Of a DNA stretch of 64,000 nucleotides, positions 12,744 through 59,652 are shown piece by piece; the first letter of the stretch is position 1, and the number at the start of each line of letters is the position of its first letter. The stretch comes from a virus. The position numbers and the translations under genes were made by a program. The stretch spans positions 1 through 64,000 of IMG/VR virus record IMGVR_UViG_3300007960_000002; one strand, given 5' to 3'. Below the pieces are notes generated by a model. It made no database searches, was not told where the DNA came from, and saw nothing but the letters and a program-made list of their open reading frames with translations.

Positions 12744-12771
12744 TTAGACAACATATATCAAGAAAAGTTCC
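12744..12771 (-). promoter_or_regulatory. sigma-E-like promoter (module promoter E)
   Basis: Minus strand: GGAACTT (12771-12765), 16 bases, then TCTAA (12748-12744) within TTGTCTAAGTA. Same architecture as four other sites in the window and as RpoE/AlgU promoters. It drives tRNA-Arg and probably the leftward small-gene and MoxR-VWA series. Confidence 0.65.
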
Positions 12772-12793
12772 ATAAGAATTTTATTTAACCTTT

Positions 12794-13009
12794 TTATTTC
12801 TTATCTCCAGTGAAAACAGTCTTTCCTTCTTTCCCTGTATAACGATAGCGATTCTTCTTACCATTACATGCCTCTCGTGGAAAGGTATTGTTGGTAGATT
12901 TACTATCATTACCCCAATTATCTCTCATTTTACGATTATCAAAACGATTGGACCATGCACCAGTCTTCTTATCTTTTGCAGTCTTACCTTTACGATCTAC
13001 ATCAGTCAT
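12794..13009 (-). CDS. small, very basic protein, 71 aa
   Basis: MTDVDRKGKTAKDKKTGAWS..., about a third Lys/Arg plus Asn, with no hydrophobic core, so probably disordered and nucleic-acid-binding. It lies directly upstream of promoter E. No family recognised. Confidence 0.6.
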   Translation of the reverse strand: MTDVDRKGKTAKDKKTGAWSNRFDNRKMRDNWGNDSKSTNNTFPREACNGKKNRYRYTGKEGKTVFTGDKK

Positions 13010-13055
13010 TTTATTTCTCCTATTTAACAGAGGATTTGTTTACTAAAATATATTG

Positions 13056-13259
13056 TCATTTATATACCCCAACAATACTATTACCTGCAATCAAAGCAGG
13101 ATTAGAAGTTACTAATCCATCAGTAACTGTGAGATCATTTGTCCTTCCATGAAGGAACATTTGTCCCCTATCAGGACCATCCAATACCATACATTTGTGA
13201 ATCCCTCTAACCTTGTACAGTGGTCCTATGTAAATGTAGCGTTTTTGCTTGGGAAACAT
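13056..13259 (-). CDS. hypothetical protein, 67 aa
   Basis: Start set at the ATG with GAGGAG upstream (MFPKQKRYIYIGPLY...); the longer form begins at a TTG. Beta-rich with glycines, resembling a small SH3-like fold, but no family is recognised. Confidence 0.6.
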   Translation of the reverse strand: MFPKQKRYIYIGPLYKVRGIHKCMVLDGPDRGQMFLHGRTNDLTVTDGLVTSNPALIAGNSIVGVYK

Positions 13260-13333
13260 ATGATTTCTCCTCAATTCTGAGAGTTGACAAGGTAAAGGAA
13301 TAGTAGGGTAGTGGGTATCCTTGTTTTTAATAA

Positions 13334-13603
13334 TTAATTAGAAAAGAAAGAGTAAAGTTTATTATATGGGAATGTTTTACCCCTGTTCCATATTGTGAAT
13401 ACATGCTCCCAATGATTTCTTCCCACCCGTTTACATAATACACACTGACTAAACTCATTGGAATTATCTGCTGGCTCAAAGAAAAAACCATAAACCCCAT
13501 CATCTCTTTTGTGTATCATTCGGATAGTTTTAATGTATTCAAAATTACAACGAGCATCAATCCTGATGAATTGATAAAACTTAAAACGATTCAACAATTT
13601 CAT
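13334..13603 (-). CDS. hypothetical protein, 89 aa
   Basis: Basic, aromatic-rich, with three Cys including CVLC. GGAG lies before the ATG. An ATGACCGTAGT word occurs in the gap just upstream (13641-13651). Function unknown. Confidence 0.6.
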   Translation of the reverse strand: MKLLNRFKFYQFIRIDARCNFEYIKTIRMIHKRDDGVYGFFFEPADNSNEFSQCVLCKRVGRNHWEHVFTIWNRGKTFPYNKLYSFFSN

Positions 13604-13640
13604 AATATATTCTCCAAAACATCATAAGGGAAACGGCGCG

Positions 13641-13651
13641 ATGACCGTAGT
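13641..13651 (+). repeat. ATGACCGTAGT word, copy 4 of 5
   Basis: The only intergenic copy, upstream of the 89-aa gene on the minus strand. Confidence 0.6.
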
Positions 13652-13670
13652 TACTTTTACTACGTAAAGC

Positions 13671-13892
13671 CTATTCAATATCATACAGTTCAGAATAGGC
13701 CATTTGTTCCATCATAGTCCAAGCTTCTTCTTCAATAGCAGCTTGTTCATCAATGGAAAGCATAGGATACGAACTAGGTTCATTAGCTCTCAGCACCTCT
13801 TCGGGATAGCCACTATACATATCGTTATAGCCACTGTATTCATCTCCTACTTCATCATCAGGAGAAGCAATATGTTGAGAAAACATTTTCAT
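13671..13892 (-). CDS. small acidic protein, 73 aa
   Basis: Strongly acidic with YSGY and YSGYPEE repeats and a helical C-terminus. Possibly a DNA mimic or host-factor inhibitor, a common theme for tiny acidic early phage proteins, but this is a guess. The gap 13893-14027 upstream holds no convincing gene. Confidence 0.55.
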   Translation of the reverse strand: MKMFSQHIASPDDEVGDEYSGYNDMYSGYPEEVLRANEPSSYPMLSIDEQAAIEEEAWTMMEQMAYSELYDIE

Positions 13893-14027
13893 TAGTGATA
13901 CTCCAATCGTCTGTTGATAGGGATTTGTTTGTCTTGTGCATATCCAGCCACTTCTGCATTAGTAATAATAAATACAATAAAAATAGTATAATTAGGTAGC
14001 ACCACCTCCCCCTTTATTTAGTAACTA

Positions 14028-14465
14028 TTAATAAATGGTATGTTCATTAATCACTTCTTCAAATGATACACTCTCAGAGTAATACCCGTTACTTGTGCCA
14101 TACCAACGGATAGTAACACGCCCTTTAATTGTCCCTAGTTTATAGAATGTCCATGTTTCTGAATCTGTTACACAACTCTCATTACTGCCCTCACCCTGTA
14201 ATTCATTAAGTGTGAAAGAAAGCTTATCATTTTCAGTAAGAAAATCTTTTTCTAATTCATTCGATTCTACTTCCTCCGCTTCAAGGATTGGATAGCCAAT
14301 CAAATCATCCCAATCTCCACAAATATCTTCCACCTCCACCGATTCACAACAATCTTGATGATGGTGCATAATATACTTCTTACCATCATCTGTTGTAAAG
14401 ACAATAGTATATTCATTTGCTTTTACATCAACTATTGTCTTCCCTTTTAATAGTATAATACTCAT
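14028..14465 (-). CDS. conserved phage protein (DUF7448-like), 145 aa
   Basis: Start is the ATG preceded by GGAGG; it overlaps the kinase gene by four bases. A central HHHQDCCESVEVEDICGDWD segment is typical of a small phage family I know as DUF7448-like. The His/Cys cluster may bind a metal. No biochemical role known. Confidence 0.65.
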   Translation of the reverse strand: MSIILLKGKTIVDVKANEYTIVFTTDDGKKYIMHHHQDCCESVEVEDICGDWDDLIGYPILEAEEVESNELEKDFLTENDKLSFTLNELQGEGSNESCVTDSETWTFYKLGTIKGRVTIRWYGTSNGYYSESVSFEEVINEHTIY

Positions 14466-14839
14466 ATATCCTCCCACCTATCTTTCATTCTTTGAACTAC
14501 TTCATCAGGAACACCATGAATGTTTTTATATTGTCCATTCATAGTAATAATAGTTAATTTTACACCTAACTCGTCAGCTAGATTAATGTATGGCTGTAAT
14601 TCCCACTTCTTTATAAATGTATTAGCAACAGCTACACTATTCCCCTTTTCTAAATGAAACCTTGTACCTTGAAAGCACTTCTCATGGCATTCAGGGAGAC
14701 GACTGGGATCAAAAGAATATTTCAGTCTATCATCCACCATGAACATATCAGCTTCCATAACCCAATAATCAGGAATAGACATAGCAAATGTTGATTTACC
14801 ACTGCCAGGTAAACCACGAATGAGAAGTAAGTTAGCCAT
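14462..14839 (-). CDS. P-loop kinase (AAA_33 / polynucleotide-kinase-like)
   Basis: A 125-residue single-domain kinase with Walker A GLPGSGKST (9-17) near the N-terminus, an EADMF acceptor-site-like motif, and a conserved ANTFIKK segment as in T4 Pnk-type kinases. It could phosphorylate a nucleotide, 5'-OH end or small molecule. The chain lacks the phosphatase domain of T4 Pnk. ATGA overlap couples it to the next gene. Confidence 0.75.
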   Translation of the reverse strand: MANLLLIRGLPGSGKSTFAMSIPDYWVMEADMFMVDDRLKYSFDPSRLPECHEKCFQGTRFHLEKGNSVAVANTFIKKWELQPYINLADELGVKLTIITMNGQYKNIHGVPDEVVQRMKDRWEDI

Positions 14840-15123
14840 TACAATATTCTCCCATATTTAGCAATAGAAATATCTTTGTATGTCGGATTAAATGGCTTAT
14901 CAGCAAAGAAACAAGCCCAAACAGGAGTACAATGTTGTCTCACTTCACCAATAGGATTGCCATCTAAGTCTACCTCTTGAACAATCCATCCCCATCGTCT
15001 TCCTTCATCGGTTTTACCAAAACCTAAAACATTGGCCCATGTTTGCCAATAATCATTATAAACATACAACCCAATATACATATCTTTTAATTGTGCTTGT
15101 TTATTCATGGGTGGGTAAGACAT
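14839..15123 (-). CDS. hypothetical protein, 94 aa
   Basis: Start set at the ATG with AGGAG upstream (MSYPPMNKQAQLKDMYIG...). Beta-rich with several Trp. Its stop abuts the kinase start. No family recognised. Confidence 0.6.
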   Translation of the reverse strand: MSYPPMNKQAQLKDMYIGLYVYNDYWQTWANVLGFGKTDEGRRWGWIVQEVDLDGNPIGEVRQHCTPVWACFFADKPFNPTYKDISIAKYGRIL

Positions 15124-15200
15124 TACAATTCTCCTATAGAAAAGACAAAGAATAATATTAATCAAAGCTACTAATTAAATATTAATAGCTTCTGTTAATA

Positions 15201-15443
15201 CTACTGCTCCATGGCTTCTTCAATTAACAGCTTTGCTTCTTTCAAGCTGCAGTCCAGCATCGCCCTGACAATCTTAATTGCCTGGATTTTAAATGTTGTT
15301 TCACGGTACATAGGGCAGGAATTATTATACATAGAAGCCTTTTCCCTCAAGACTTCCACAATCTGGATAGCTGCCCACTGCTTATCTTCCAGAATGATAG
15401 ACATACCATCCCGACAAACAACAGTCTTCTTTTCAACACTCAT
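15201..15443 (-). CDS. small protein with L7/L12-like C-terminus, 80 aa
   Basis: Start set at the ATG after GAGGAGAG. The C-terminal half (KIQAIKIVRAMLDCSLKEAK, then LLIEEA) resembles the factor-binding C-terminal domain of ribosomal protein L7/L12, whose usual form is ...IKxVR...GLGLKEAKxLVE. It may be an independently folded phage version that contacts ribosomal GTPases or RNA polymerase. Similarity is by eye only. Confidence 0.6.
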   Translation of the reverse strand: MSVEKKTVVCRDGMSIILEDKQWAAIQIVEVLREKASMYNNSCPMYRETTFKIQAIKIVRAMLDCSLKEAKLLIEEAMEQ

Positions 15444-15523
15444 TTTTTTCTCTCCTCTTGTGAATGACAGACAATAAAAAAGCCCCCTATTCAATTAAGA
15501 ATAAGAGGCTTTGTTATTGAAAG

Positions 15524-15733
15524 CTATCTAATCTTATTACGGAATACTGCACCATGTACCCCTGTAATAATGTTTCTAGGCACTACCCCAGTATGAGCAT
15601 ATTTACTATGCTTATTCTGTCTCCTCTCATCCCGAGACATACGTGCATTGTCTTGCTTGACTTCACCGGGTTTACACCCCATAAAGGAATTAAAACGAGA
15701 CTGGTTTAGTTTCCTCAGTTGTTGCGGAGTCAT
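15524..15733 (-). CDS. small basic protein, 69 aa
   Basis: Start set at the ATG after GGAGG (MTPQQLRKLNQSRFNSF...). Basic, glycine-containing tail. Overlaps the upstream 99-aa gene by 44 bases. Function unknown. Confidence 0.55.
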   Translation of the reverse strand: MTPQQLRKLNQSRFNSFMGCKPGEVKQDNARMSRDERRQNKHSKYAHTGVVPRNIITGVHGAVFRNKIR

Positions 15734-15989
15734 ATTTTTCCTCCAAGATAATATTGATACGTTCGCAAGCAACAAACGCATTAAGCTTAATCTTCTCTAA
15801 TCCTTTCCGTTTGATAGCACGAGGAAAAGAGATAAGATTGAGCTTGTTTCTCCAGTTGATATACCCATCAATGGAGGTATGAGGGTTTAATTCTAAAAAA
15901 CAATAAACCCTATTATTCACTTCCCATAGAGCGTTTAATTTATCTATAGACAATTCTCTGTATTGATCCATTATTTCAGAAACATACAT
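15690..15989 (-). CDS. hypothetical protein, 99 aa
   Basis: Helical, mixed charge, no recognised motif. Overlaps the following gene in a different frame. Close to the first gene of the leftward array, so probably expressed early. Confidence 0.55.
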   Translation of the reverse strand: MYVSEIMDQYRELSIDKLNALWEVNNRVYCFLELNPHTSIDGYINWRNKLNLISFPRAIKRKGLEKIKLNAFVACERINIILEEKYDSATTEETKPVSF

Positions 15990-16086
15990 TATAAGTCCCC
16001 TATTAAAGACAGATATTATTAATACACACTCAATAATAGAATATGTATTAATAATACATAAAGGGCCTCCCTGCCCTTTTAATGTA

Positions 16087-16590
16087 TCAAGCGGCTGCTT
16101 CGCTCATCGCCCTGCGAAAACGGGATTCGATTTCCTGGTTTGACAGTCCTTCTTTGTCCATTCCCTTGCGTAGAACAGCAACTAATGCCTTATCAAAATC
16201 AAAGGCATTATCAGCAGATTGTTTATTAAACATATCCCACCGCTGGCCATTAGCCAGTTGATGGGCAGCCTTATCCCAGTCCATTTCACTAAACTTCCGC
16301 TTTCCAGCGACCTTATAACGCTGGGTTTCTTTATCCCAAGAAACAGGAAGTTCCAAGAAGCGGAAGTAAGCATTCATTTGCTTACCGTCACTCCCGACAA
16401 CTAACTTGTCTCCCGATTTATGGGATAAACCTTCGACCAAGTCGGTAAGCCAATCAGTGTTACCCATGGAGAGCTGGTAAACTGCCCCACCGATAGCTGT
16501 TTGCAACATTGCAGCAGCCGATACCCGCGCCTTGACGGCCTCAGCCAGATACTTACGAGAGACGGAAGAAAAATCGTTAATGGTAGCCAT
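16087..16590 (-). CDS. first leftward (early) protein, 167 aa
   Basis: Start set at ATG 16590 with GAGG upstream (MATINDFSSVSRKYLAEAVK...). Mostly helical, Ala-rich, soluble. Its codons are visibly more GC-rich than its neighbours and it is the first gene out of the divergent intergenic region, which suggests strong early expression. No family recognised. The longer reading to 16677 lacks a good start. Confidence 0.65.
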   Translation of the reverse strand: MATINDFSSVSRKYLAEAVKARVSAAAMLQTAIGGAVYQLSMGNTDWLTDLVEGLSHKSGDKLVVGSDGKQMNAYFRFLELPVSWDKETQRYKVAGKRKFSEMDWDKAAHQLANGQRWDMFNKQSADNAFDFDKALVAVLRKGMDKEGLSNQEIESRFRRAMSEAAA

Positions 16591-18160
16591 AATAAACATC
16601 CTCGGAGTGGTTAAAAATACATTGATATATATCACAGAATTATGATATATATTCATATATTCTTTACAGTCCTCCAAACTCGGCTATCTAATCTAATAGT
16701 TAGCTCGCATATCCATAAGGTGGCGGTATCAATCCATAGCCTCATAAGCCCCATATCATGCACTACATAAGCCTCTGCTTATGCTGTGATAGTGGGAAGC
16801 GTTCCCTGCCCCTATACCATTGCAAGCCTGCCGATAACCTAAGCCCATCCGCTGTTTATATGGTTCAAAATCACATAATCCAATTAATCCGATGATGCCG
16901 ATTAATCAAACTATGTTCATCCAAACCTAAACAGTGTATGCCTAGGGATTTTAATTGCTGATTTAGTGCGTCAAGGTTTTCTATGACCCAAACCGTATTC
17001 CAACACTCTCGTGTTATCCGCTTACTGTTCAACTTCAGCCGGATAGGTTATTGCAAACAATTAGGCCCTGTTCTCTACGGATAACAGCAGCCATATTGCT
17101 TTATACCTAAATGCAACAAAGGGAGAATTAATTAATGGTCCTTGTTCCCCTCTAATTGCCATCCAATGGCTTACTACTCGGACCTAATAATAGCAACCAC
17201 TGTGCCAACTATGAAAAACAATAGAGAAAACAATAACCTACTCAATAACAGGATATACTAATGTAGAGAAATAACCATAAAATGTAAAATATTCTGACAC
17301 TATTCCCATGAATAAAACAACTATAGCGAGAGAAAACAACAACATACTCATCTGTAAAGAATCCTGACAACTGTCAATAAATTTAACAACTGAACAATGA
17401 AGAGAATAAATACATGAAATATATAGAGAATAAATAGGAACAATATTGCAATGAGATTTAATGAACTAATCCATAGGAACAATACAATTATAATGAAAGA
17501 AAACAACAACATATGTAAGAAATAGGACATAAACAGGAGAATATGTATCATATCACAGGAAGCCATGTAAGCCATTCTAAGCTATCCAAGCTTCTATCCT
17601 GCCCGTGGTATCAACCAATAGCACAATGGCTTAGAACGCAGCACATGGCCAGCTAGAGTTATAGAACAAACAGAGAACATACCCACCAATAACAGAACAG
17701 TGTACATATATATAAGGAATAGATGTGAATAAAAAGAATAGGGGATGGCATGATATGTGCTACCTTGTGGGGCTTGCAGAATGATAATACTATCAACTAA
17801 ATGTGTGGTAAAAAAACAACAATAAGTTAGATGTGTAGGAGGAAATACACTATATATTGAATAAGCAGGACACATAAACACAATATATTGTGGTCTATCA
17901 ATAATTTACATAGGAATGTTGAGATCATAGAATAGGTTTATAATGGTGTAGATGGTATATATATGAAGGGGGGTTGTTAGAATAAAGGTGGTAGGGGGAG
18001 GGTCTTATTATATATATTATCCTACCTATAAACACAATACTTGTTTTTTTTATTTAACAATACTTGATATTTTATATATCTACCTTGTTTTTTTTATTTA
18101 ACAATATTTTATATTATTTTTCAATTATTTAATTTTTTTTAATTATTTTTTCATTTTTAG
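16591..18160. other. gene-free divergent region (regulatory or origin candidate)
   Basis: No ORF here is convincing. The part 16680-17200 is moderately GC-rich with many AAGCC/ATAAGCC words. The part 17200-17560 is A-rich with degenerate direct repeats: GAGAAAACAACAACATACTCA-type at 17224, 17330 and 17495; TGTAAA-AT-CTGACA-type at 17281 and 17351; ATAGGAACAATA at 17434 and 17473. From 18000 the sequence becomes extremely AT-rich. The leftward early promoters must lie here, and a replication origin is plausible, but I could not fix a clear sigma-70 pair. Confidence 0.5.
18040..18106. repeat. T-rich 23-bp perfect direct repeat
   Basis: Two identical 23-base copies (CTTG, eight T, ATTTAACAATA) at 18040-18062 and 18084-18106, 44 bases apart. 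They sit 55-120 bases upstream of the rightward sigma-E-like promoter. They could be an UP-like element, activator sites or part of an AT-rich unwinding element. Confidence 0.7.
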
Positions 18161-18188
18161 GGAACTTTTTTTGATTTCTGTTGTCTAA
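18161..18188 (+). promoter_or_regulatory. sigma-E-like promoter (module promoter A, late rightward)
   Basis: GGAACTT (18161-18167), 16 bases, TCTAA (18184-18188) in an AGGGAAC...TTGTCTAA context, matching the other four. It faces the entire lysis-packaging-structure cluster and is followed by a leader of about 470 bases. Confidence 0.65.
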
Positions 18189-18667
18189 AGGTTGTATGAA
18201 GCAATTATAGTAAGGAATATCATTTTAGGGATAGTAAGAAATCATAGGATGGTTTGCTCTAATCCAACACTCATCAAAGGAATGATGTTTTAAACAGTCG
18301 CCCCTTTAATCCGGGGGAGTACATCTACTAGTAGGTATATAGCACCTGAGTAGAGTCAAAACAGGCAAGACACATTAACAGTCAATGCTCTCCTTTAGAC
18401 ACCTCACTATATGATTTTAGACATTCATGGTGAGGACAATGTTTAAATGGAAGTAGACACCTCACCATGATACATAGTATATAATACTATGACATCAACA
18501 AGAGAAGGGCTACTCTTTAAAATAGCTTCCTGATAATTGACTAAGACTATACGCATAACAGACTACCATAGAATATTTAATATATATTCTATCATGGTAG
18601 GAGTGTTAGGATTAAACATGTCTAAAATAAATTAATTTAAATAGATTCTTTGACATAATTGCGTCTA
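18189..18667 (+). promoter_or_regulatory. long structured 5' leader of the rightward unit
   Basis: Non-coding. It contains a CCCC/GGGG hairpin near 18302-18318, an 11-bp perfect inverted repeat TCATGGTGAGG/CCTCACCATGA at 18425-18435 and 18460-18470, a second copy of TAGACACCTCAC at 18399, and a long AU-rich hairpin at 18563-18600 (CTACCAT...ATGGTAG). No U-run follows the last hairpin, so it looks more like an RNA-processing or stability element than a terminator. Confidence 0.5.
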
Positions 18668-19045
18668 ATGTACAGATTCTCTAATTCTTCATATTATAAA
18701 TTATATGGTGTCAATCCTAAATTAATTTCTTTAGCTACACTAGCTCTAAAATATTCTGATGTAGATTTTGGTGTTAGTGAGGGCGTAAGAAGTAAGGAAA
18801 GACAAAGAATGTTATTTAAAATGGGTAAGTCTCAAACAATGAATTCTAAGCATTTAAAGGGTGATGCTATTGATGTCTTTGCTTGGGATGATGGAGTGAA
18901 ATGGGATTTCTACTATTATAATAAAATTAATGAAGCTTTTAAATTAGCTGCTCATGAATTAAATATTGATTATGTTTGGGGTGGTGATTGGCATACATTT
19001 AAAGATGGTGTTCACTTTGAGTTAGATGATAATGCAAAATTTTAA
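18668..19045 (+). CDS. endolysin, L-alanyl-D-glutamate peptidase (M15 family)
   Basis: A 125-residue VanY/M15-type peptidase. SEGVRS, SKHLKGDAID (His62, Asp69) and DGVHFEL (His116) give the zinc ligands, with WGGDW between. It cleaves the peptide of peptidoglycan at lysis, like T5 endolysin. No signal peptide, so it needs a holin; the 51289-51609 membrane protein is a candidate. Start chosen as ATG 18668; a TTG at 18659 is also in frame and no strong ribosome-binding site decides. Confidence 0.9.
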   Translation: MYRFSNSSYYKLYGVNPKLISLATLALKYSDVDFGVSEGVRSKERQRMLFKMGKSQTMNSKHLKGDAIDVFAWDDGVKWDFYYYNKINEAFKLAAHELNIDYVWGGDWHTFKDGVHFELDDNAKF

Positions 19046-19466
19046 ATCAAAACAAAGAATTTCTCTTTCTAGAAATATTAAAGATAAAAAGCGGTTTGAA
19101 GTGTTAGAAGATATTTTTTATAAAAATATTATAATCCATGAGGGTTTTAAAACTGATGGTGCTAGTATTAAGTTTGGTAGATATGCTGTTGGTTGTCCAT
19201 TTGAAGGAGTTTATTTAGGCCCTGCTATAGTACATGATATGTTATATGTCTCGAAGAAATGTTCTAGAAAAGAAGCAGACAAAGAGTTTAAGGAAGCTTT
19301 ATTAGATGTTGGTGTTTCTAAATTGAAAGCTAATGTTATGTATTATGCCGTTAGAATGTTTGGTAGATGGCCTTGGGAGAATTACACTGAAGAAGAAATA
19401 TACACAGCAAGACAATTTCTCACAATTATACCAGTTAGTTATGGAGATTTCATCGGAAGTGAGTGA
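19026..19466 (+). CDS. DUF1353 phage protein
   Basis: A 146-residue member of DUF1353 with the typical GFKTDGASI and PAIVHDMLY segments and the SRKEADKEF helix. Common near phage lysis genes; function unknown, possibly cell-wall related because of its constant association with endolysins. Overlaps the endolysin by 20 bases (ATG at 19026 or 19032). Confidence 0.8.
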   Translation: MIMQNFKSKQRISLSRNIKDKKRFEVLEDIFYKNIIIHEGFKTDGASIKFGRYAVGCPFEGVYLGPAIVHDMLYVSKKCSRKEADKEFKEALLDVGVSKLKANVMYYAVRMFGRWPWENYTEEEIYTARQFLTIIPVSYGDFIGSE

Positions 19467-19479
19467 GAAGGATATTTTA

Positions 19480-24236: not shown

Positions 24237-24255
24237 AAAATATTTTTAAATTTAG

Positions 24256-24283
24256 GGAACTTTTTTAAGTTTTTATTGTCTAA
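24256..24283 (+). promoter_or_regulatory. sigma-E-like promoter (module promoter B, capsid)
   Basis: GGAACTT (24256-24262), 16 bases, TCTAA (24279-24283), with TTTTTAAA just upstream as in promoter C. It lies in the portal-scaffold gap. Its leader holds a tandem repeat (ATTTCGTCTAC-AAC-ACGATAA) at 24301-24322 and 24330-24349. Confidence 0.65.
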
Positions 24284-24357: not shown

Positions 24358-24570
24358 GTGGAAGATATAAATTATGAAGAAAAATTTCAAGAAATTCAAA
24401 ATAAATTATTGTCTGTTGAGGAAACCCTCCTGGATGATATTCTAAATGGGGATAATACAGAGAAAAGATCACTTTGTGTACATTCTTTTTTAGAATTTAG
24501 ACAAGCAATGTCAGTTAGTCAATTAGGATTTATTCCAGAAGAGGAACCAGAAGATGCCCAAGACAGTTGA
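24358..24570 (+). CDS. small acidic protein before the scaffold gene, 70 aa
   Basis: Starts at GTG with AAAGGT upstream. Helical, acidic, overlapping the scaffold start by 17 bases. Probably a head-assembly accessory factor by position; no family recognised. Confidence 0.55.
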   Translation: MEDINYEEKFQEIQNKLLSVEETLLDDILNGDNTEKRSLCVHSFLEFRQAMSVSQLGFIPEEEPEDAQDS

Positions 24571-25594
24571 TGTATATGAACGAATGAAAGATGTAGATCC
24601 CGATTATATGGAAGATTTAGAAAATATGTCTGAAGAAGAGAGATTAAAGGCTATGGGATATGATTTTGATGATGAAGAAGAGGAAGAAGTAGATCCTGAA
24701 GAAGAAAAAGAAGAAGAAGGGGAAGAGGATAGTGGAGAAGATGAATCTGAAGATGAAGGTGAGCAAGGAGAGGATGAAGAAGAGGGAGAAGAAGCTTCAG
24801 AGGATGATGAAGAAGAATCCACAGATAAGGATGACATTAGAATCCCTAAGGCCCGATTTGATGAAGCAGTTCAGACAGAACGAGAACGAAGGAAAGAATT
24901 AGAAACTAGGTTCAAGGAACAGGAAGAACGTAGTCGATGGTTAGAAGAACAATTAGGTTTATTAATTCAAAATCAGCAAGCCCCTAAACGTGATATAGCA
25001 GAACCTAAAGAAGTATTTGATTTTGAAAAAGCAGAAGCTGATTATATTAAAGCCCTTATTTCTGGTGAAGATCAAGAAGCAGCAAAATTACGTAGTGTTA
25101 TTAATAGGGAACAAGAGAAGCGATATGAAAGTCGTATTTCTCAATTAGAGGAAAAGTTATTAAATAAAACTACAGAGTCTTATAAACGTATTTCTGATGA
25201 AGATAAACTTAATCTTGTGTTAGATAATGCTAGAAATAAGTTTCATCAATTAGACGAAAGTCATGATGACTATGATGTAGATTTAGCAAATGATATTGAT
25301 GCATTAGCTCAAGGTTATGTAGCTAGACAGAAGATTAATCTAGCAGATGCTTATCAAAAAGCTATTGATCGTTCTATGAAGGGTGTAAAAAAAGAAGAAA
25401 CTGTAGCACCATCTAAAGAAATCTCTAAAAGGAAAAAGGCTAAAGCTAAAAAGATTTCTAGTCAGCCTCCTAAAACTGCTGGTAGTAAGACTAAAGAAAT
25501 TGATTTAGATAGCTTAGATGTTTCTAAGATGACAGAAGAAGATTTTGCTAAACTTTCAGATAAAGATATTTCTTACCTATTAAATAAAGCATAA
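24554..25594 (+). CDS. scaffolding protein
   Basis: A 346-residue protein with an extremely acidic region (about residues 38-92, mostly E and D), long coiled coil (100-135) and a Lys-rich then acidic C-terminus, typical of phage scaffolds that guide capsid assembly and are then removed. Placed between portal and capsid genes as usual. No protease domain seen. Confidence 0.85.
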   Translation: MPKTVDVYERMKDVDPDYMEDLENMSEEERLKAMGYDFDDEEEEEVDPEEEKEEEGEEDSGEDESEDEGEQGEDEEEGEEASEDDEEESTDKDDIRIPKARFDEAVQTERERRKELETRFKEQEERSRWLEEQLGLLIQNQQAPKRDIAEPKEVFDFEKAEADYIKALISGEDQEAAKLRSVINREQEKRYESRISQLEEKLLNKTTESYKRISDEDKLNLVLDNARNKFHQLDESHDDYDVDLANDIDALAQGYVARQKINLADAYQKAIDRSMKGVKKEETVAPSKEISKRKKAKAKKISSQPPKTAGSKTKEIDLDSLDVSKMTEEDFAKLSDKDISYLLNKA

Positions 25595-25759: not shown

Positions 25760-26875
25760 ATGGCACAAACTAGTTTTCCCTTAGCTACTGGTCACGGTAG
25801 TAAAATCGTATGGTCACGTCTTGTCTGGAAAGATGCTCGTGATCAGATGTTCATTAATAAGTTCTTTGGTGGTAGTGATAGTGTTATCAATCGCGTCACT
25901 GAACTAACTAAACAGGAACGTGGTGAGAGTGTTCGTTTCCAGCTCGTTGCAGATCTAATTGGTGATGGCACCATTGGTGATAACGAACGTGAAATGAATG
26001 AAGAATCTCTACAGAACTATGTAGATAACATCACTATTGATCTTATTGCTAATCAGGTTAAAAATACTGGTAAGCTCTCTGATCAGAAATCTATCTTTGA
26101 TTTCCGTTCCCTAGCTCGTGAGAAACTAGCCTATTGGTTAGCTAATCGTCTAGACCAGTTAGCTTTCTTAACCCTATCTGGCATTGATTATTCTTATAAC
26201 AATGATGGTTCTACTCGTACTGATAGTGCATTTGCTAATCTAGGTTTTTCTAGTGATGTATCTGCTCCTACCAGTAATCGTCATTATCGCGTAACTGCTG
26301 ATGCTTCTGGTGTTTATACTGGATTAGAAGCTGGAGCTACTGCTTCAGTAGATGCTACTGATACTCTGTCCTATAAAGCTGTAGTAGATGCTTGTGTTAA
26401 GGCTCAGCGTAACTACATGCCTCCTCTTTCTAGTGGTGGCCAGGATAAGTATGTAGCTTTTATTTCTCCTGAAGGTTATGCCCAGCTTAAGAAGGATGAT
26501 GATTTTCAACGTGCTGTTACTTCTGGTGGTAGCCGTGGTAGTGATAATCCTTGGTTTACTGGTGGCATTCAGACTGTTGATGGTGTAGTTTTTCATCCTC
26601 ATCGTCTAGTGTTCAATACTCTAGGTGCTGCCTCTGGTAGTAAATGGGGTAGTGGTTCTACTGTCGATGGTAGTCGTATGCTACTATGCGGTCGTCAGGC
26701 TCTTGGTATGATTGATCTCGGTCCTCCAGAGTGGAATGAAAAGACTTTCCAGTATGGGACTCAGCAGGGTATTTCTGTTGATAAGATGTTTGGTATGAAG
26801 AAACCTAAGTTCTATAATGTCAATACTGGCCAGGATGAAGATTTTGGTGTAATGGCTATTGACCACGCCATATAG
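25760..26875 (+). CDS. major capsid protein (N4 gp56 / DUF4043-like)
   Basis: A 371-residue capsid protein. The first 90 residues (KIVWSRLVWKDARDQMFINK, then RGESVRFQLV and NEESLQNYVDNITID) match the N4-gp56-family capsid pattern. Codon use is the most biased in the window (high expression). Preceded by scaffold and tRNA, followed by promoter C. Confidence 0.9.
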   Translation: MAQTSFPLATGHGSKIVWSRLVWKDARDQMFINKFFGGSDSVINRVTELTKQERGESVRFQLVADLIGDGTIGDNEREMNEESLQNYVDNITIDLIANQVKNTGKLSDQKSIFDFRSLAREKLAYWLANRLDQLAFLTLSGIDYSYNNDGSTRTDSAFANLGFSSDVSAPTSNRHYRVTADASGVYTGLEAGATASVDATDTLSYKAVVDACVKAQRNYMPPLSSGGQDKYVAFISPEGYAQLKKDDDFQRAVTSGGSRGSDNPWFTGGIQTVDGVVFHPHRLVFNTLGAASGSKWGSGSTVDGSRMLLCGRQALGMIDLGPPEWNEKTFQYGTQQGISVDKMFGMKKPKFYNVNTGQDEDFGVMAIDHAI

Positions 26876-26895: not shown

Positions 26896-26923
26896 GGAAC
26901 TTTCTGGTCTATTTGTTGTCTAA
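26896..26923 (+). promoter_or_regulatory. sigma-E-like promoter (module promoter C)
   Basis: GGAACTT (26896-26902), 16 bases, TCTAA (26919-26923) within TTGTCTAAGTA. It lies 20 bases after the capsid stop and drives the HNH-AP2 gene and the decoration/fibre genes. Confidence 0.65.
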
Positions 26924-52836: not shown

Positions 52837-53056
52837 CTGAAAATCTCTCTAACATTCGTCTGTCTAGTTCTTTAGATAACCATTCTCCAAACTTCTCTCT
52901 AGCAGCAGCTCTAAAATCTTCTACTGTAGGTTTAGGTTTGGGATTAAGTTCTTCCAATACCTCTTCTAATAATTTTTCCTCAGAGGTCAACGACTTCACA
53001 AACTCCTCCAGTACATGAATATGTTTGGACACCTTTGGTGTGATCTTCCTTTTCAT
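52757..53056 (-). CDS. hypothetical protein, 99 aa
   Basis: Helical, charged; GGAGATT precedes the ATG. It overlaps the last 77 bases of nrdJ. No family recognised. Confidence 0.55.
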   Translation of the reverse strand: MKRKITPKVSKHIHVLEEFVKSLTSEEKLLEEVLEELNPKPKPTVEDFRAAAREKFGEWLSKELDRRMLERFSDEKDIQSMQKCFYSTEARPYNWNKRD

Positions 53057-56000
53057 AATCTCCTAATTTAGACCAATCAACATCTTTAGGCATATTTTCT
53101 AAAAGAGTATTATATTCTTCTTCGCTAATTTCTTGATAAGGGGCTTGTTTATATGTATGATTTGAATGAGGAAGAAAACTAATTCCACTAATCTCATCAA
53201 AATATTTATAAACCCATGCTCCTACTTCCATCCATTCTTCATCCTTTACATATACAGTAATAGAGGGTTTATGTTCACACCAATGCCTTTGATATGTTAA
53301 CCAAAGCTCTAACTGTTCAATAGCTGTTCTATCATCCCTAAATATAGAATTCTCTGGAGATTTAATAGGGAAACTAAATACAGATACACTATCAGGCTTA
53401 TTCTGTGCATCTTCTACAGGAAATCCAACATCAGTCATATACTTTGCTAATGGATCTTTTTTATCAGCTCGTACAGTTCTAATATAGTATGGAGAGTGAC
53501 GAGAATGAATGCCACTAGCGCTGTCCACCAACTGAGAGACAGTACCGGAAGGCTTACAAAAGTTCAACATCAGTCGTTACCTGATGCCCGTTTTAGGCGG
53601 TAGTAATGAGTTTTACTGATTCCAAACTTTCTCTTAGCTTCTTTAAAAGAATATTTTAAAATTTCTTCTGCACAATATGTGTCTTGTTTTGCCCAATATT
53701 CTTTAGAAACTTTAGAAAATAAACGTTTATTTTCATCAGTATGATTCATACCTAAAGCTGGTTTTCTACCTTGACGTTTAGACCTTAACTTCTTTTTCCA
53801 ACCTTCAACGTCCTGTACCACAAAACCACCTTCACCGCCTTTAGCTAAATTAAGGATATTATGTTTTAAATTTCTAGCTTCTTCAATTAGAGTGATTTCT
53901 TTTTCACAACACTCTTGATGAGTTAAACTATCATCTTTTAACACAATAATAAAATCATTATACTTTCTCATGCAGTCATATAAAGGGGATTTAACGCCCC
54001 CTTTTGCACAAGATTTATGCTGATTTAATCTAGTTTGTAACTTGTTTTTAGTGATACCGATATAATACCACTTAGTAGATCTACTTACTAGATAATAAAC
54101 CTTATAATTAGCTACACTGCCCTCAGATTTCTCTGGGGATCGGACTATATCTTCCTCTTTAGTAAGAGGCCCTGCACTTCCACAACACTTGTTGTGTACT
54201 CCGTCTTCACGGATAGTCTCTGAACCTTCCTCATTAGAGGCTTGGCTGCTGATTGCCATATCTTTCGACTTAGGTTTCCAGCAGTTCACAGGGTTATCCA
54301 TCATTAGTTACCTAATGTGGGTGCTAATTCATTAACACAAGTGATAGCGGCAGCAGGGTTAATCCCAAGTTTAGCAGCCCACTCTTTATTTGTAATAATT
54401 GCTTCATTACGCATCTCTTCTAAAAACTCTTCTAAGTTTCTTGGTAATTCACCAGTACCACTTACTGTCCATGTACTACTACCATTTAACACAGGATGAT
54501 CCATAATACCAGTTAGTGATACACCAAGTAATGCTTCTTCCTCTGTATTTTCTTTCCACTTCTTAGAAAGATAACGGAAATTTACTAATGATGCTTGAAG
54601 TGTACCAAGGATTGTAGCAGCTCGTACTTTCCTTTTAAGGTCGTCCATCGTGTCACTATGTCTAACCACAACTTCTGAGAGGTTACAAAATTGCCTGTCT
54701 CGGAGAATAATTTCAGAGCATGGATTTGTTCCAAAATCAAACTCTGCATTTCTTCTTCCGTTTTTCTCAGCTTGTTTTTTACTCGCTTCTCTGTTAAAGA
54801 TGCCACGTTCTCCACTTTTACTCTCCACTAAGGCAAGCCATTCTCTCATAAATGTTTCAGCATCTGGCTTTTCTGTATAAGCTACAGAATTATTAGCTAG
54901 TTCATATTCTTTATGGTCTACCCACCACTGACCAGACTTAGCATGACGCATCCTATCATCACTAAGATTAGAGAGACTGATTAATGCACTTCTACGACTA
55001 TTTGGACTATATCTTTACATTTAATGTATCGGACGCTATTTAGTGTTTGTATTTCCATATTCACTTAGTCTCTGAACCTTCCTCATCATGAGGCTTGGCT
55101 GCTGATTGGTTTTCACTTTCCAGCAATTCATCCGACGCTTGGGGCTCGTAGTATTTAACTAGGTAATTATTTAACATTGTATTTTTCTTCACATTCTTCA
55201 AATAAGGTGTTAAACTATCCAAGAAGGGCTTGTTCTTCTCTGTGTTTTGAGCTTGAAGTCTCCAGACATTATCACCATGCTGCCTTAATGTCGTAGGTAC
55301 ATTAAATCTCTCAAAAATTGATTGAAGATCACTTAAAAATAGTTCACTTTCATGTGTAATAAAAAAGCGTAATCTTGGTGTTCTACAATCTTTTCTATTA
55401 GTGACGGTTATAAACCCATCGGCATCTATACATCCAGCAAGATAAGGCAAAAGGAAGTCTTGTTTAATCCCAACAATTCTTCTATCTTTCTTATATTTAA
55501 ATATACCAAACTTATTAAAAGAGTGGTTCATTTTAGCTGGAAATCTTAGTTCAAATACATTATTTCTAGCTGTAACCTTTTTTGAAGATTTTTTACCTAC
55601 ATTATAAACAACCCTATCAGGGCAATACCTATTATTGAAATGATTAATAATATGTTCTTCAGTGCTGCTTACCATCATAAAAGGGTATTTAGAATTAATA
55701 TAACCCCCATCACAAGCCATATATCCAATTAAATAAGCAGTGAAATTATTCTCAATTTTATCAAATACTCTACAATGTTTTTTACTACCCTTATCTGTGT
55801 ACTCGATTACTCTTTCCATAGGATTTCTCCTCTATCAGATTTAAAACTGAAAGGCTTAGTTTCTTGCCTCTACCCCGCCGACAACGACGATGTCTGCAAT
55901 TTTACAAACAAGGCCATGCACTTCAATAGATGTAAGCTTACGGCCAGTAGCATTACGGAACAAATTAACAGAATAATTAAATAAATCATCTAATGGTTCT

Positions 56001-56569
56001 GGACCCGATGCCCTGCCTCCAAATGTTTTGAGTGGGGCACCTGCGGGGCGAATCTTAGACAAGTCCCATTTCGGGATTTTACCAGAGTAAAGAAGGCTGA
56101 GGAGTTCTCTAAATCCAGTAGCCCAACCGATTTTGCTATCTGTAATAACGATTGACGTTTCACTCTCGTACATTTCCTCAGCTATAGTTGGTAGTTTGCT
56201 CACTTCTTGACGTTCACAACTAAAACCTACTCCAGTTCCACACATAAGGATATACATTAATTCATCAAAAGCACGTTGTCTATTAATGGCAACATAAGAA
56301 CAATTATATCCTGCTACTTCATCTCTATTTAATGCTTCACCTGCTGTCATTAAAGATCTCATGCTGGGCATAATTTCTAGATCATAAATTGCTTGCTGTA
56401 ATTCTGATCTAATACCCTTTACACTATCTGGAAACCTATTCTCCCAAAAATCCATCAATCTACAAACAGTTTCGCTCCAAGATTCCCTCCGATTCTCATT
56501 AGGAAGCCATCTAGCATAGCGCGAAAGCGCAATAAATTCGCCATATTGTGGGTATGAATGCTTATTCAT
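52980..56569 (-). CDS. nrdJ: class II ribonucleotide reductase, interrupted by two group I introns
   Basis: Joined exons 56569-55872, 54997-54335 and 53556-52980 give exactly 1938 bases (645 aa). Exon 1 holds the GYNCSY active-site Cys region and ends GG-V; exon 2 continues RRSALISL and contains NPCSEI (catalytic loop); exon 3 continues KPSGTVSQL and ends with the redox pair SCTGGVC. This monomeric, coenzyme-B12-dependent enzyme turns ribonucleoside triphosphates into dNTPs. Both junctions keep the frame and follow group I rules (exon ends in T, intron ends in G). Shorter than the 739-aa Lactobacillus enzyme. Confidence 0.93.
53557..54334 (-). mobile_element. group I intron 2 of nrdJ (GIY-YIG type)
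   Basis: 778 bases. The 5' exon ends ACTTGTGT, the intron ends in G before TAAGCCTTCC. Core elements GTTCAGAGACTA (54225-54214) and AAGATATAGTCC (54153-54142), the P7 strands, are present. The endonuclease ORF continues after P7, near the 3' end. Precise splicing restores ITCV-KPSGT. Confidence 0.88.
53570..54304 (-). CDS. GIY-YIG homing endonuclease in nrdJ intron 2
   Basis: GIY-YIG nuclease domain VYYLVSRSTKWYYIG (about 69-83), followed by a helical Lys-rich DNA-binding part (about 150-244). The ORF opens with ATGATG directly on exon 2's unspliced stop (TAATG) and reads through the ribozyme core, so the true N-terminus is uncertain. It presumably spreads the intron to intronless nrdJ alleles. 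Confidence 0.82.
   Translation of the reverse strand: MMDNPVNCWKPKSKDMAISSQASNEEGSETIREDGVHNKCCGSAGPLTKEEDIVRSPEKSEGSVANYKVYYLVSRSTKWYYIGITKNKLQTRLNQHKSCAKGGVKSPLYDCMRKYNDFIIVLKDDSLTHQECCEKEITLIEEARNLKHNILNLAKGGEGGFVVQDVEGWKKKLRSKRQGRKPALGMNHTDENKRLFSKVSKEYWAKQDTYCAEEILKYSFKEAKRKFGISKTHYYRLKRASGND
54998..55871 (-). mobile_element. group I intron 1 of nrdJ (LAGLIDADG type)
   Basis: 874 bases. Exon 1 ends GGCGGGGT, intron ends AAATAG before TCGTAGAAGT, restoring G-V-R-R-S. P7 elements GTTCAGAGACTA (55077-55066) and AAGATATAGTCC (55015-55004) are identical to intron 2's. The endonuclease ORF lies before P7, unlike in intron 2. Confidence 0.88.
55061..55819 (-). CDS. LAGLIDADG homing endonuclease in nrdJ intron 1
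   Basis: 252 residues with two LAGLIDADG motifs: YLIGYMACDGGYI (about 29-41) and YLAGCIDADGFIT (about 125-137), giving a monomeric double-motif enzyme. The C-terminal EEGSETK overlaps the P7 sequence of the intron. Start ATG lies within the intron, 52 bases after the 5' splice site. Confidence 0.9.
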   Translation of the reverse strand: MERVIEYTDKGSKKHCRVFDKIENNFTAYLIGYMACDGGYINSKYPFMMVSSTEEHIINHFNNRYCPDRVVYNVGKKSSKKVTARNNVFELRFPAKMNHSFNKFGIFKYKKDRRIVGIKQDFLLPYLAGCIDADGFITVTNRKDCRTPRLRFFITHESELFLSDLQSIFERFNVPTTLRQHGDNVWRLQAQNTEKNKPFLDSLTPYLKNVKKNTMLNNYLVKYYEPQASDELLESENQSAAKPHDEEGSETK

Positions 56570-56810
56570 TTTCTAATTCTTTCTCCTTTTCTTCTAGTGC
56601 AGAAAGAAACTTTGATTTTTCTTTAGCTTTTAACCAACGCTTCTCAATCTCTTCAATTTGTTTTTTCTTACCAAGCCCGTTTTCCATGCGATTAGCCATA
56701 GATTGAGCTTCTTCAATTAATCCCTCTAAATAAGAAAAGTTTTTAGTTTCATTGCATTTTCTCATTTCATGAAAGACATCACAAATTACTCTATTTAAAT
56801 AATAATCCAT
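56562..56810 (-). CDS. helical protein upstream of nrdJ, 82 aa
   Basis: Mostly coiled coil (Glu/Lys-rich C-terminus). Overlaps the nrdJ start by eight bases. May be a ribonucleotide-reductase accessory by position only. Confidence 0.55.
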   Translation of the reverse strand: MDYYLNRVICDVFHEMRKCNETKNFSYLEGLIEEAQSMANRMENGLGKKKQIEEIEKRWLKAKEKSKFLSALEEKEKELENE

Positions 56811-56813
56811 TGT

Positions 56814-57254
56814 TTATTCCTCAATTTTTAAACCATAATCAATTTTCTTTAATTCAGATATCTTTTTAGCTAAATCTATCTTTATTTCTCTCAACCCTGG
56901 ATTAGCTTTTTTATATCCATTCCCATATAGGTCAGGTAATTCACAAAAGTTAATTGCTAGCTTGGCCTGTGGCTGCTTTTCAAATAAATAAGGTTCGATT
57001 TGCTTTAAGAAATTATTGGCTGCTTTTTTATTTGAAATCCTCCATTGATAAATGGATCTATGATTCTCATTAGATTTATTTCTAACAGAAACCGTTCCTC
57101 CAAAAAAATCTTTCATTCGTTCTAAAAATGGCTTATGAGTATTTGTAATAAATACATGTATACCAAATCCATTATCTCGTTTGTTTTGAACTATCCTAAT
57201 GCACCCCTCCCCATCAAAATACCCTGCAATATAGGCTAAAGTGTTACTGTTCAA
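56814..57254 (-). CDS. free-standing LAGLIDADG endonuclease, 146 aa
   Basis: One motif, YIAGYFDGEGCI (about 8-19), so probably a homodimer. It starts at TTG (GGAG upstream), overlapping the thyX stop by 11 bases, and sits in the thyX-nrdJ gap. No intron or intein surrounds it; a likely mobile or domesticated nuclease. Confidence 0.85.
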   Translation of the reverse strand: MNSNTLAYIAGYFDGEGCIRIVQNKRDNGFGIHVFITNTHKPFLERMKDFFGGTVSVRNKSNENHRSIYQWRISNKKAANNFLKQIEPYLFEKQPQAKLAINFCELPDLYGNGYKKANPGLREIKIDLAKKISELKKIDYGLKIEE

Positions 57255-58113
57255 TTATTTGTCTCCATTGTAGCCATCCCCTTGCATTTCCACTCCAATA
57301 TCTACCATCCCTGTCTAGATGGGTAGTCCCTCTTTCCCAGTCTTTACCAGCCTTTAGCCTACTCTCAGTAAGATGTGATTCTTTCATAGGAGTTAGACAG
57401 TGCTCGAAAGGTGACATATGACCGGAAGATAATAAGAAGTTGTACAATTCAATATCCTTGTTAATATCTGGCTGACTTCCATCATGGTTATTATAAGAAA
57501 CACGGGCACACCTCGCTATTGAACATTTAATTGCATTCTCAATACCTACATTATTAACATTCAACTCTTCAAATATATTAATATAAGGTAAATGATATTC
57601 TCCTGGTTTTAATACTTCAGGGGTACTCTCATCCATCGCTTCTTTCATACATCTAGCCAGCTCTTGTATTTCTGGTTGAGCATCCTTAGCTAAACGTAAC
57701 TTAAAGAAGTTATCCCATTCCGTAGCTGTTACAATTTTCTTCTGTAACATCCATGGTTCTAGGTAACGATTTAAGTGTTGTTTGTGGATTATGTTTTCAT
57801 ATTCATGTAACATAACTTGAAGATCATCATAATAACTCTCTATATCGAATTTAAACCTTCCACGATCTCTTATTTCAATTTGCTCATATCCTTGCATTCC
57901 TTTTTGTTTCTTTCTAATATCTTCTGGAGTATACATTTCTTTCAACGGACCAAATGGAATAGCTCTAGATGAAGAAGAATTAGATGACAACATCCTGTGC
58001 TTTTCAAACTCAGCATCAATAAACTTAGGGGCTTGAGTTTCAATTGTTGTTAAACGAATACCACTCTGTGAAATACTATCTGCAATTATCTTTGCTGTAA
58101 TTTGATTACTCAT
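57244..58113 (-). CDS. thyX: flavin-dependent thymidylate synthase
   Basis: 289 residues. The ThyX signature appears as KHRMLSSNSSSSR (38-50), near the canonical RHRxxSxNxxSxR, and ARCARVSYNNHDG follows. It makes dTMP from dUMP using FAD, NADPH and methylene-tetrahydrofolate. It works with the dCMP deaminase-like protein and NrdJ. Longer than bacterial ThyX by about 50 residues. Confidence 0.88.
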   Translation of the reverse strand: MSNQITAKIIADSISQSGIRLTTIETQAPKFIDAEFEKHRMLSSNSSSSRAIPFGPLKEMYTPEDIRKKQKGMQGYEQIEIRDRGRFKFDIESYYDDLQVMLHEYENIIHKQHLNRYLEPWMLQKKIVTATEWDNFFKLRLAKDAQPEIQELARCMKEAMDESTPEVLKPGEYHLPYINIFEELNVNNVGIENAIKCSIARCARVSYNNHDGSQPDINKDIELYNFLLSSGHMSPFEHCLTPMKESHLTESRLKAGKDWERGTTHLDRDGRYWSGNARGWLQWRQIIEQ

Positions 58114-58149
58114 TCACATCCCTTCTTTATAGCTTTTCTTGTAGCTTCA

Positions 58150-58395
58150 TTATTTGTATGGTCTAAAATTATGTAATGGACAATTTAATGATTGACATGT
58201 TTGAATTGTAATCTTAGTTTCTTTCTTACCATCTGCACCACCGCCGGCACAATCCCAACATTTAGCATAGATAGCTATTGACCTTGACTTAGGATTTTCT
58301 TTTGCTTTCTGGTAGAAGTCTTTATGTACTACCTTCTCACCATTAGCTTTCATTTCAGCTTTCTTTTGTTGAGCTATTAATAAAGCTTTATTCAT
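58150..58395 (-). CDS. small zinc-finger-like protein, 81 aa
   Basis: Start set at ATG 58395 with GGAG upstream. Contains CWDCAGGG and, 20 residues later, C...CPLHNFRPYK, a cysteine arrangement shared by small phage and bacterial proteins of unknown role. Probably binds one zinc. Confidence 0.65.
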   Translation of the reverse strand: MNKALLIAQQKKAEMKANGEKVVHKDFYQKAKENPKSRSIAIYAKCWDCAGGGADGKKETKITIQTCQSLNCPLHNFRPYK

Positions 58396-58705
58396 TAAAT
58401 ACTCCATATCTGATTGCTTGCTCTAGGTCTAGTTTGGCTACCCATGGATTAATAATTCTATGTTTAATCATTTTATTAATTGTATTAATATCATCTTGAT
58501 TAACTAAACTAAGATTACATATACTACTATCAACTTTAATCTGTGTTCTCCTATCATCAACATATTGTATATTCCATAGCGTATCACGTCCATAATTATT
58601 TTGTGCAATATTACAACTACGTACACAATTAAATCCAGCTATTTTATTAACTTGATTTGTTAAAATAGGACTAATCCCCGGATTTATGGCAAAATCAGCT
58701 TCCAT
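58388..58705 (-). CDS. hypothetical protein, 105 aa
   Basis: Mixed alpha/beta, four Cys, no recognised motif. Overlaps both neighbours. Function unknown. Confidence 0.55.
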   Translation of the reverse strand: MEADFAINPGISPILTNQVNKIAGFNCVRSCNIAQNNYGRDTLWNIQYVDDRRTQIKVDSSICNLSLVNQDDINTINKMIKHRIINPWVAKLDLEQAIRYGVFNE

Positions 58706-58904
58706 AATAATTCTCTAATTCATTAATAATGTTAATTAACAGGTCTAAACTACATCCCATTAATTGCCCTTTAGCCCAGGTCCATTCTTCTTTATAATGG
58801 TCAAATCTAATAACTGTCAGCCTTTCTCTAATAAATTCATCCGGTGGTTTATATGTAATTATATACCTAATTAACTGGTCTTTAGTCTCTAGTACTTTCT
58901 TCAC
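58695..58904 (-). CDS. hypothetical protein, 69 aa
   Basis: AGGAG precedes a GTG start near 58904, which is preferred over the longer 78-aa reading that begins at a TTG. No family recognised. Confidence 0.5.
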   Translation of the reverse strand: MKKVLETKDQLIRYIITYKPPDEFIRERLTVIRFDHYKEEWTWAKGQLMGCSLDLLINIINELENYYGS

Positions 58905-59145
58905 CACATAACTCCTGTAACATTGAATCAATACAGAACCTAGCTTTTCTTAGATCCTCTACTCTATTCTTTGCATACCAACGTAAGAGGTATTTGATAG
59001 CATTAGAATAGTCATAAGCTAGCTCTGCCCCTTGTCCATCATAAGCTTTAACTACACCTGCTATTCTATCCTTAATAACATCCCTTACTTCATTACATTC
59101 ACTATTGAATTGATAGTGAGAAGGTTTTGATACGTTATCGTTCAT
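58882..59145 (-). CDS. DUF3310-type protein, 87 aa
   Basis: Shows the DUF3310 pattern: VSKPSHYQ near the N-terminus, EVRDVI, then AYDYSNAIKYLLRW and a KN...EDLRKA helix. It is common next to phage nucleotide-metabolism genes; function unknown. AAGGTG precedes the chosen ATG, which overlaps the MazG gene. Confidence 0.78.
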   Translation of the reverse strand: MNDNVSKPSHYQFNSECNEVRDVIKDRIAGVVKAYDGQGAELAYDYSNAIKYLLRWYAKNRVEDLRKARFCIDSMLQELCGEESTRD

Positions 59146-59593
59146 TACCATCACCTTGAATAACTCCACGCTCTTTACGAGAAGTTAATTTGTTCATATT
59201 ATTTTGAATGAATGCAGCAAAATGCATCTCTGAATAATAATCTTTAAATATACATATTACATTTTCCATTAATTGTAAAACAACACCATCAATCTTTTTA
59301 CCATCTCTAATCATTTTCTTAAGATTTTCTGCTATATTAATTTGTATATAAGTTGGATCTCTTTCACAAAGAATATAATGTAAATCTTCTCCATAATAAT
59401 TACATAATTGACTTAGATAATATAATACATCCCCTGCTTCTTTTTCATTATGTCCTGATTCATCCCACTCTTGTAATTCACCCCAAATACCTAAAGTTAA
59501 ATAAAGAAGCTCATCTTGCTTATGTTCATTAGCACCTGGATACAATGCTGTTGTAGGGGTAAATTGTTGGTATTCTTGAAATAATTCTTTCAT
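59135..59593 (-). CDS. MazG-like nucleotide pyrophosphohydrolase
   Basis: 152 residues, all-helical, with the MazG motif GELQEW...KEAGDVLYYLSQL (about 33-61), whose acidic residues bind Mg2+. It hydrolyses NTPs or dNTPs to monophosphates, probably cleaning the pool or adjusting (p)ppGpp-like signals. First gene after promoter D. Confidence 0.8.
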   Translation of the reverse strand: MKELFQEYQQFTPTTALYPGANEHKQDELLYLTLGIWGELQEWDESGHNEKEAGDVLYYLSQLCNYYGEDLHYILCERDPTYIQINIAENLKKMIRDGKKIDGVVLQLMENVICIFKDYYSEMHFAAFIQNNMNKLTSRKERGVIQGDGNER

Positions 59594-59624
59594 CTATCAC
59601 CTTCGTTTTGTTGAGAGCAAATAC

Positions 59625-59652
59625 TTAGACAACACAGTTTTAAAAAAGTTCC
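59625..59652 (-). promoter_or_regulatory. sigma-E-like promoter (module promoter D, nucleotide metabolism)
   Basis: Minus strand GGAACTT (59652-59646), 16 bases, TCTAA (59629-59625) within TTGTCTAAGTA. It drives MazG, thyX and nrdJ. The leader to the MazG ATG is about 25 bases. Confidence 0.65.

Follow-up and report, generated by a model that had tools for sequence, protein, structure and literature searches.

Recurrent two-block sites with an RpoE-type promoter core in the genome of a tailed phage and in other viral contigs

Which form of RNA polymerase reads a two-block sequence that is repeated, with constant spacing, in front of gene groups of different function in one phage genome? The question is raised by a stretch of 64,000 nucleotides (the window; positions 1 to 64,000 of the IMG/VR record IMGVR_UViG_3300007960_000002), in which a sequence-only reading had pointed to five occurrences of GGAACTT, exactly 16 bases, and TCTAA, and had interpreted them as promoters of the kind used by the envelope-stress sigma factor RpoE (sigma-E, AlgU), an extracytoplasmic function (ECF) sigma. 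The five exact matches are present in the window, against a mean of 0.03 in dinucleotide shuffles, none of 100 of which reached five; the letters around them are also as claimed, with GGGAAC at four sites, TGGAAC at the site next to a tRNA gene, and TTGTCTAA at all five. When the whole record of 68,037 bases was scanned for GGAACTT and TCNAA with spacers of 15 to 17 allowed, eight sites were obtained, all with a spacer of 16, and the backwards pattern gave none. The -35 element is GGAACTT in the eight sites, as fixed by the search pattern itself, and the -10 element is TCTAA in five of them and TCAAA, TCCAA and TCGAA in one each. Among all pairs of 6-mers separated by 10 to 22 bases in the window, the eight pairs among the matches listed were all forms of the GGAACTT/TCTAA motif. 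With two mismatches allowed the count is near chance (17 sites versus a shuffle mean of 10.75, with 4 of 100 shuffles reaching 17), and therefore our claim is restricted to the eight sites. From their sequence and placement we infer that the GGAACTT-N16-TCNAA sites are promoters that initiate transcription, and that the factor reading them is presumably the host's own.

In E. coli K-12, the same core with a spacer of the same length, 16 bases, stands upstream of rpoE, and the corresponding sequence of degP, GGAACTT-16-TCTGA, differs in the second block; we take these upstream sequences to be the sigma-E-dependent promoters of the two genes. Published work describes RpoE elements as a -35 of about GGAACTT and a -10 of about TCAAA (PMC12153292), and gives the -10 of Neisseria sigma-E as CGTCTAA, but with a different -35 (PMC2893595). 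Unlike the E. coli promoters, the sites described here lie in phages, where TTG precedes TCTAA in most cases and GTA often follows it. Given this agreement with E. coli rpoE in core and spacer, and the conservation of the sites in related phages, their assignment as putative promoters of RpoE-type architecture is well supported.

The placement of the sites is consistent with this assignment. By the list of open reading frames (ORFs) the record is 92.8% coding, and 28-mers lying wholly within gaps account for 5.9%; nevertheless, gaps hold five of the eight sites (approx. 3e-5 by a binomial calculation on the ORF list). Both strands are used, and all eight sites are oriented along their genes: the five intergenic ones read into the next gene on the same strand, and the three intragenic ones sit on the coding strand of the gene that contains them. 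The site at 12744-12771 (minus strand) lies in a gap directly above a tRNA-Arg (TCT) gene (12660-12737, minus), the first base of which is 7 nucleotides below it. Transcription by ECF sigmas usually starts a few nucleotides below the -10, so that a start at this distance from TCTAA would coincide, exactly or nearly, with the 5' end of tRNA-Arg; in Neisseria, the start lies six nucleotides below the -10 (PMC2893595). The site at 18161-18188 (plus) stands in front of the late gene run, the first listed ORF being 471 nucleotides below it, and that at 24256-24283 (plus) marks the portal/scaffold junction, the scaffold-like gene (24554-25594, plus; without a Pfam match) being assigned from a position between portal and capsid that is kept in relatives. 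The site at 26896-26923 (plus) follows the major capsid protein gene (25760-26875, plus; identified by tblastn to annotated capsid proteins) and is upstream of a gene with the Pfam family HNH_3. The fifth site, at 59625-59652 (minus), precedes a run that comprises a MazG-like gene (59135-59593, minus; weak Pfam match, E 0.075, below the cut-off), thyX (Pfam Thy1) and ribonucleotide reductase pieces; a counterpart is found in the same place, above a homologue of the MazG-like gene, in L246, a stretch of phage DNA, judging by its genes, within an archaeal metagenome-assembled genome. The description of the five sites as heading late genes, scaffold and capsid, HNH, tRNA-Arg and nucleotide metabolism was thus right in outline. 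Two weaker sites were added within the window, one (TCAAA, 5711-5738, minus) within a deaminase gene and directed at the genes for exonuclease and DNA polymerase, the other (TCCAA, 3348-3375, minus) close to the 3' end of the gene for DNA polymerase and reading into the next genes; the scan of the rest of the genome with the two-block motif gave one more, at 67353-67380 (minus), outside the window.

The portal/scaffold junction allowed the conservation of one site to be followed in nine relatives that were found by capsid similarity and whose locus includes this junction. The site is present in six of the nine, in strict form in L120 and L121 and as a variant (TGAACTT and/or TCTTA, TCTAT) in L143, L145, L149 and L150, the spacer being one base longer in L149. 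Two further stretches, L133 and L137, which were fetched by the motif alone, also have the junction site. When the nine junction sequences with the site, one of them from the window, were aligned, neither GAACTTTTT nor TGTCT varied, and the flanks diverged. At the head of the late run, the distance from the site to the next listed ORF is 471 nucleotides in the window, 471 in L133 and 384 in L137. Counterparts of the post-capsid site at 26896 occur in L171, with a spacer of 17, and in L144, in relaxed form. A relaxed pattern matched in 16 of 88 loci with 24 matches, seven of them the window's own, versus 9 for the reversed control; therefore, relaxed matches outside orthologous places must be partly due to chance.

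The motif is also found in viral records well beyond these relatives. An 18-letter form, GGAACTT-N13-TTGTCTAAGTA, was detected in 21 stretches of viral contigs, in comparison with 2 for the reversed pattern and 3 for a spacer one base longer. With the strict pattern (spacer 15-17, TCNAA), 26 of 31 records matched, 18 of them at least twice, and the reversed control matched in 0 of 31; most of these records were picked because they hold a site. When the 26 site-bearing records were pooled, 53 sites had a spacer of 16, and every other spacer from 4 to 32 gave at most 2; for the reversed control the count was 0 at spacer 16 and never exceeded 4 across the spacers. All the pooled records except the phage's own were fetched for holding a site, although the capsid-similarity search had independently recovered G007 and G025 as well, so that one site per record is not independent evidence; in addition, G003 and G017, G010 and G021, and G011 and G013 are near-identical or share sites. 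Of the pooled sites, 46 are distinct and have full flanks, and TG precedes TC in all 46; half of them (23) fall outside GGAACTT-N13-TTGTCTAAGTA, and some came from a search that required TGTCTAA. With regard to an upstream (UP) element, the bases above these 46 sites are A/T-rich, but so is the DNA of many of the genomes in general. In many of the motif-bearing phages the sites listed are placed above genes; in G006 the sole site is antisense to a short listed ORF and may be due to chance. The motif records comprise relatives of this phage, phages with Zobellviridae-like genes, and others that share replication genes alone or nothing. The proteins of this phage that recur most often among 21 motif records are the exonuclease (13), two DNA polymerase parts (9 each), the primase-helicase (7) and a ribonucleotide reductase piece (6), followed by a DUF3150-like protein, the MazG-like protein and the portal (5 each). 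G003 and G017, which have two shared sites and T4-like genes (by eye), may be a separate case.

Since an ECF-like factor encoded by the phage itself outside the window had been offered as an alternative reader of the sites, the completeness of the record is relevant. Its last 123 bases are identical to its first 123, and this exact direct repeat indicates that the genome is closed, at approx. 67.9 kb, with little or nothing missing. The 4 kb past the window contain the remainder of the primase-helicase gene (by eye and homology), small ORFs, a phosphoesterase-like gene and a 5'-3' exonuclease gene (Pfam), and an HNH-like gene (Pfam, below the cut-off), and no ECF sigma was found among them. 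The sigma profiles TIGR02937, PF04542, PF08281 and PF04545 had no match in the closed record, a result compatible with a very divergent form; PF04542 was searched in 26 records, PF08281 in 15, and TIGR02937 and PF04545 in the phage's own. Likewise, 40 proteins of the phage compared with Pfam at E up to 1 gave no sigma, and 20 proteins compared with PHROGs gave no convincing one. The part of the original proposal that concerns RpoE-type architecture is thus well supported, and the part that concerns a phage ECF factor was not borne out. A phage single-subunit polymerase, the other reader that had been considered, fared no better: PF00940 has no match in this genome, while the control, the T7-type polymerase of Synechococcus phage S-CBP3, was detected at 5.6e-55 in the same search, which took in four motif records.

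The simplest account, which we regard as moderately probable, is that these promoters are read by the host RNA polymerase carrying a host RpoE/AlgU-type ECF sigma. Early genes would be expressed from ordinary sigma-70 promoters near the gap at 16.7-18.1 kb, where no site stands out, and no fewer than eight ECF-type promoters would serve the genes for replication, tRNA and virion. It may be speculated that infection frees the host sigma from its anti-sigma, perhaps with the help of putatively exported proteins whose genes lie below the 12744 site; such a release would couple envelope stress to phage expression, a suggestion that is equally speculative. More tentatively, and with somewhat less confidence than would make it probable, it is proposed that several unrelated tailed-phage lineages without a recognisable polymerase have settled on the same host RpoE-type sigma for their replication and virion genes, and that infection is tied to, or triggers, the envelope-stress response.

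Several observations weigh against a host sigma of this type. The TG before TC and the frequent GTA after TCTAA are letters of the phage sites beyond the RpoE core. In 257 gigabases of bacterial and archaeal genomes, the 18-letter form occurs 5 times, when approx. 7 are expected by chance with equal base use; a clear host was not found from these five matches, one of which is L246. Within one phylum, the TGTCTAA form was matched in 5 genomes out of 299, including the centre genome, which had been chosen because it carries the form; the reversed control was matched in 7. Conservation also has its exceptions: the printed junction of L147 lacks the site, L122 and L123 have none by strict or relaxed scans, and a strict match was found in just 3 of 79 capsid-relative loci, with 0 for the reversed control. 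The whole records of the cultured relatives AP1, KPP25 and phiA008 are without a strict site, and ctwe8250 has one, with a spacer of 17; the cultured relatives scanned infect Pseudomonas, Acidovorax and Aeromonas, and yet hosts of these types possess RpoE-type sigmas. 

The bacterial genomes also provided a separate observation. In four of the 299, L267, L268, L269 and L270, a near-identical GGAACTT-N16-TCTAA lies above a conserved small ORF; judging by eye, an ORF resembling Hsp20 follows in L267 and L270. No match was obtained when plasmids were searched with the small ORF. Among the 6-mer pairs listed for AP1, KPP25 and the split-sigma phages described below, a stretch of each being searched, no comparable two-block motif was present; the pairs listed for phiA008 and ctwe8250 were filled by simple or tandem repeats. 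In KPP25 (L126, 9537-9707) there was a local repeat only: three copies of AATTTCGTA, then CCTTAGT, lie approx. 80 bases apart in a gap and are possibly early promoters.

The main rival to a host sigma is a sigma or sigma-like factor encoded by the phage and too divergent for the profiles, as in phages phiEco32 and 7-11, and we consider it unlikely although it has several points in its favour. The late promoters of 7-11 (GTAAtg-(16)-aCTA) are read by its own sigma, and the sigmas of 7-11 and phiEco32 are just 15% identical (PMC8948821). Both are phage promoters for which the host core polymerase would carry a non-primary sigma (here a proposal), and the blocks of 7-11 are also 16 apart; the letters differ, being GTAAtg/aCTA and tAATGTAtA there (PMC8948821), and the sigma is phage-encoded in those phages, whereas none was recognised here. 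Enrichment of the TTGTCTAAGTA form was seen among viral contigs, with 21 stretches, but not among bacterial genomes, with 5, and this also weighs against a host factor. Furthermore, split ECF-like sigmas are encoded by some Zobellviridae (Vibrio phage 464E53-1 and phage T4S1-k141_776450), and therefore phage sigmas occur near these lineages. These phages resemble ours in having T7-like replication genes, an ECF-type solution and no PF00940 match (in their case in a search without a detected control), and differ in having regions 2 and 4 on two small genes. Nevertheless, PF08281 detects both of them, as a positive control, and does not detect this genome, the stretches of them that were examined are without the GGAACTT motif, and the best matches in a search with the split-sigma profiles had E values of 0.023 and 0.26. 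If promoters are nearly identical in unrelated phages, the factor that reads them should be conserved, and a conserved phage sigma would be expected among the recurring proteins (a sigma differing between phages would not); the widely shared proteins are mainly those of replication and nucleotide metabolism, an indication that the factor is not encoded by the phages.

Two candidates for such a sigma were rejected. The match with E 0.023, in G007, is a partial one of 27 residues in a protein of 119 residues that has no sigma family in Pfam. The second, an 84-residue helix-turn-helix protein of G011, gave 1.5e-5 with PF08281 and elsewhere 0.0007, below the cut-off, and its best Pfam family is HTH_23; its weak likeness to sigma region 4 is nonetheless a point for a phage factor. 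The gene for this protein (L249, 15998-16252, minus) has relatives in G001, G008 and G013. In the split-sigma Zobellviridae, the two small genes for regions 2 and 4 lie beside the DNA polymerase gene (L255, 14461-15020; L256, 14500-15008).

Another alternative is an activator encoded by the phage that, by binding to one of the two blocks, would bring the host's sigma-70 polymerase to these sites, in the manner of the T4 MotA/AsiA system, in which phage proteins redirect that polymerase. The phage-specific letters around the core would fit an added binding protein, but the second block is, by inspection, TCTAA and not TATAAT, and both blocks jointly make up an ECF promoter core, so that this alternative seems improbable. 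That the blocks are instead a paired binding site or an RNA element (e.g., for replication, packaging or repression) is the least probable explanation of all, since, even if three of the eight sites lie inside genes, it has to accommodate the fixed 16-base spacing, the gene-wise orientation of all eight on both strands, their position above genes in many phages and the 7 nucleotides to the tRNA.

Other features of the genome were noted in the course of this work. Between divergent gene runs, positions 16680-18160 of the window form a largely non-coding region of approx. 1.4 kb with more A than T, possibly an early promoter or origin region. Below the tRNA-Arg site, 10925-12344 (minus) holds three ORFs with signal-peptide-like starts (by eye), possibly for exported proteins. 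For the first leftward protein (169 residues), relatives were not found among viral contigs, and a single-sequence structural model was poor (pLDDT 46.7). The DNA polymerase (3258-5413, minus) is apparently split into an exonuclease part and a polymerase part, separated by an ORF of 95 residues, and the primase-helicase (window 60885-63878 and L119 2886-6434) reads as one protein of 1182 residues with apparently two intein insertions (by eye). Two group I introns (Rfam) are located in the ribonucleotide reductase region, at 54121-54344 and 54982-55182 (minus), with homing-endonuclease-like ORFs close by (by eye).

Phages are known to carry their own sigma factors or to reshape sigma-70, and phage promoters for alternative or phage-borne sigmas are already known. 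Pseudomonas phage YuA reportedly has proposed sigma-54-type promoters; in that case the use of a host alternative sigma has likewise been proposed, with another sigma family and another promoter type. The present sites are set apart by their RpoE-like core, by being conserved from phage to phage, and by the absence of any phage sigma that could be recognised; a literature search, with most subscription journals outside its reach, found no report of phage genes under RpoE- or ECF-type host promoters. If the host reading is true, phages can use a stress sigma to time their gene expression, with an envelope-stress-type core heading replication and virion genes in diverged phages, and this raises the testable question of whether infection needs, or releases, RpoE. 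The motif itself can be used, at the level of DNA, to search metagenomes for such phages and to narrow down the range of their hosts.

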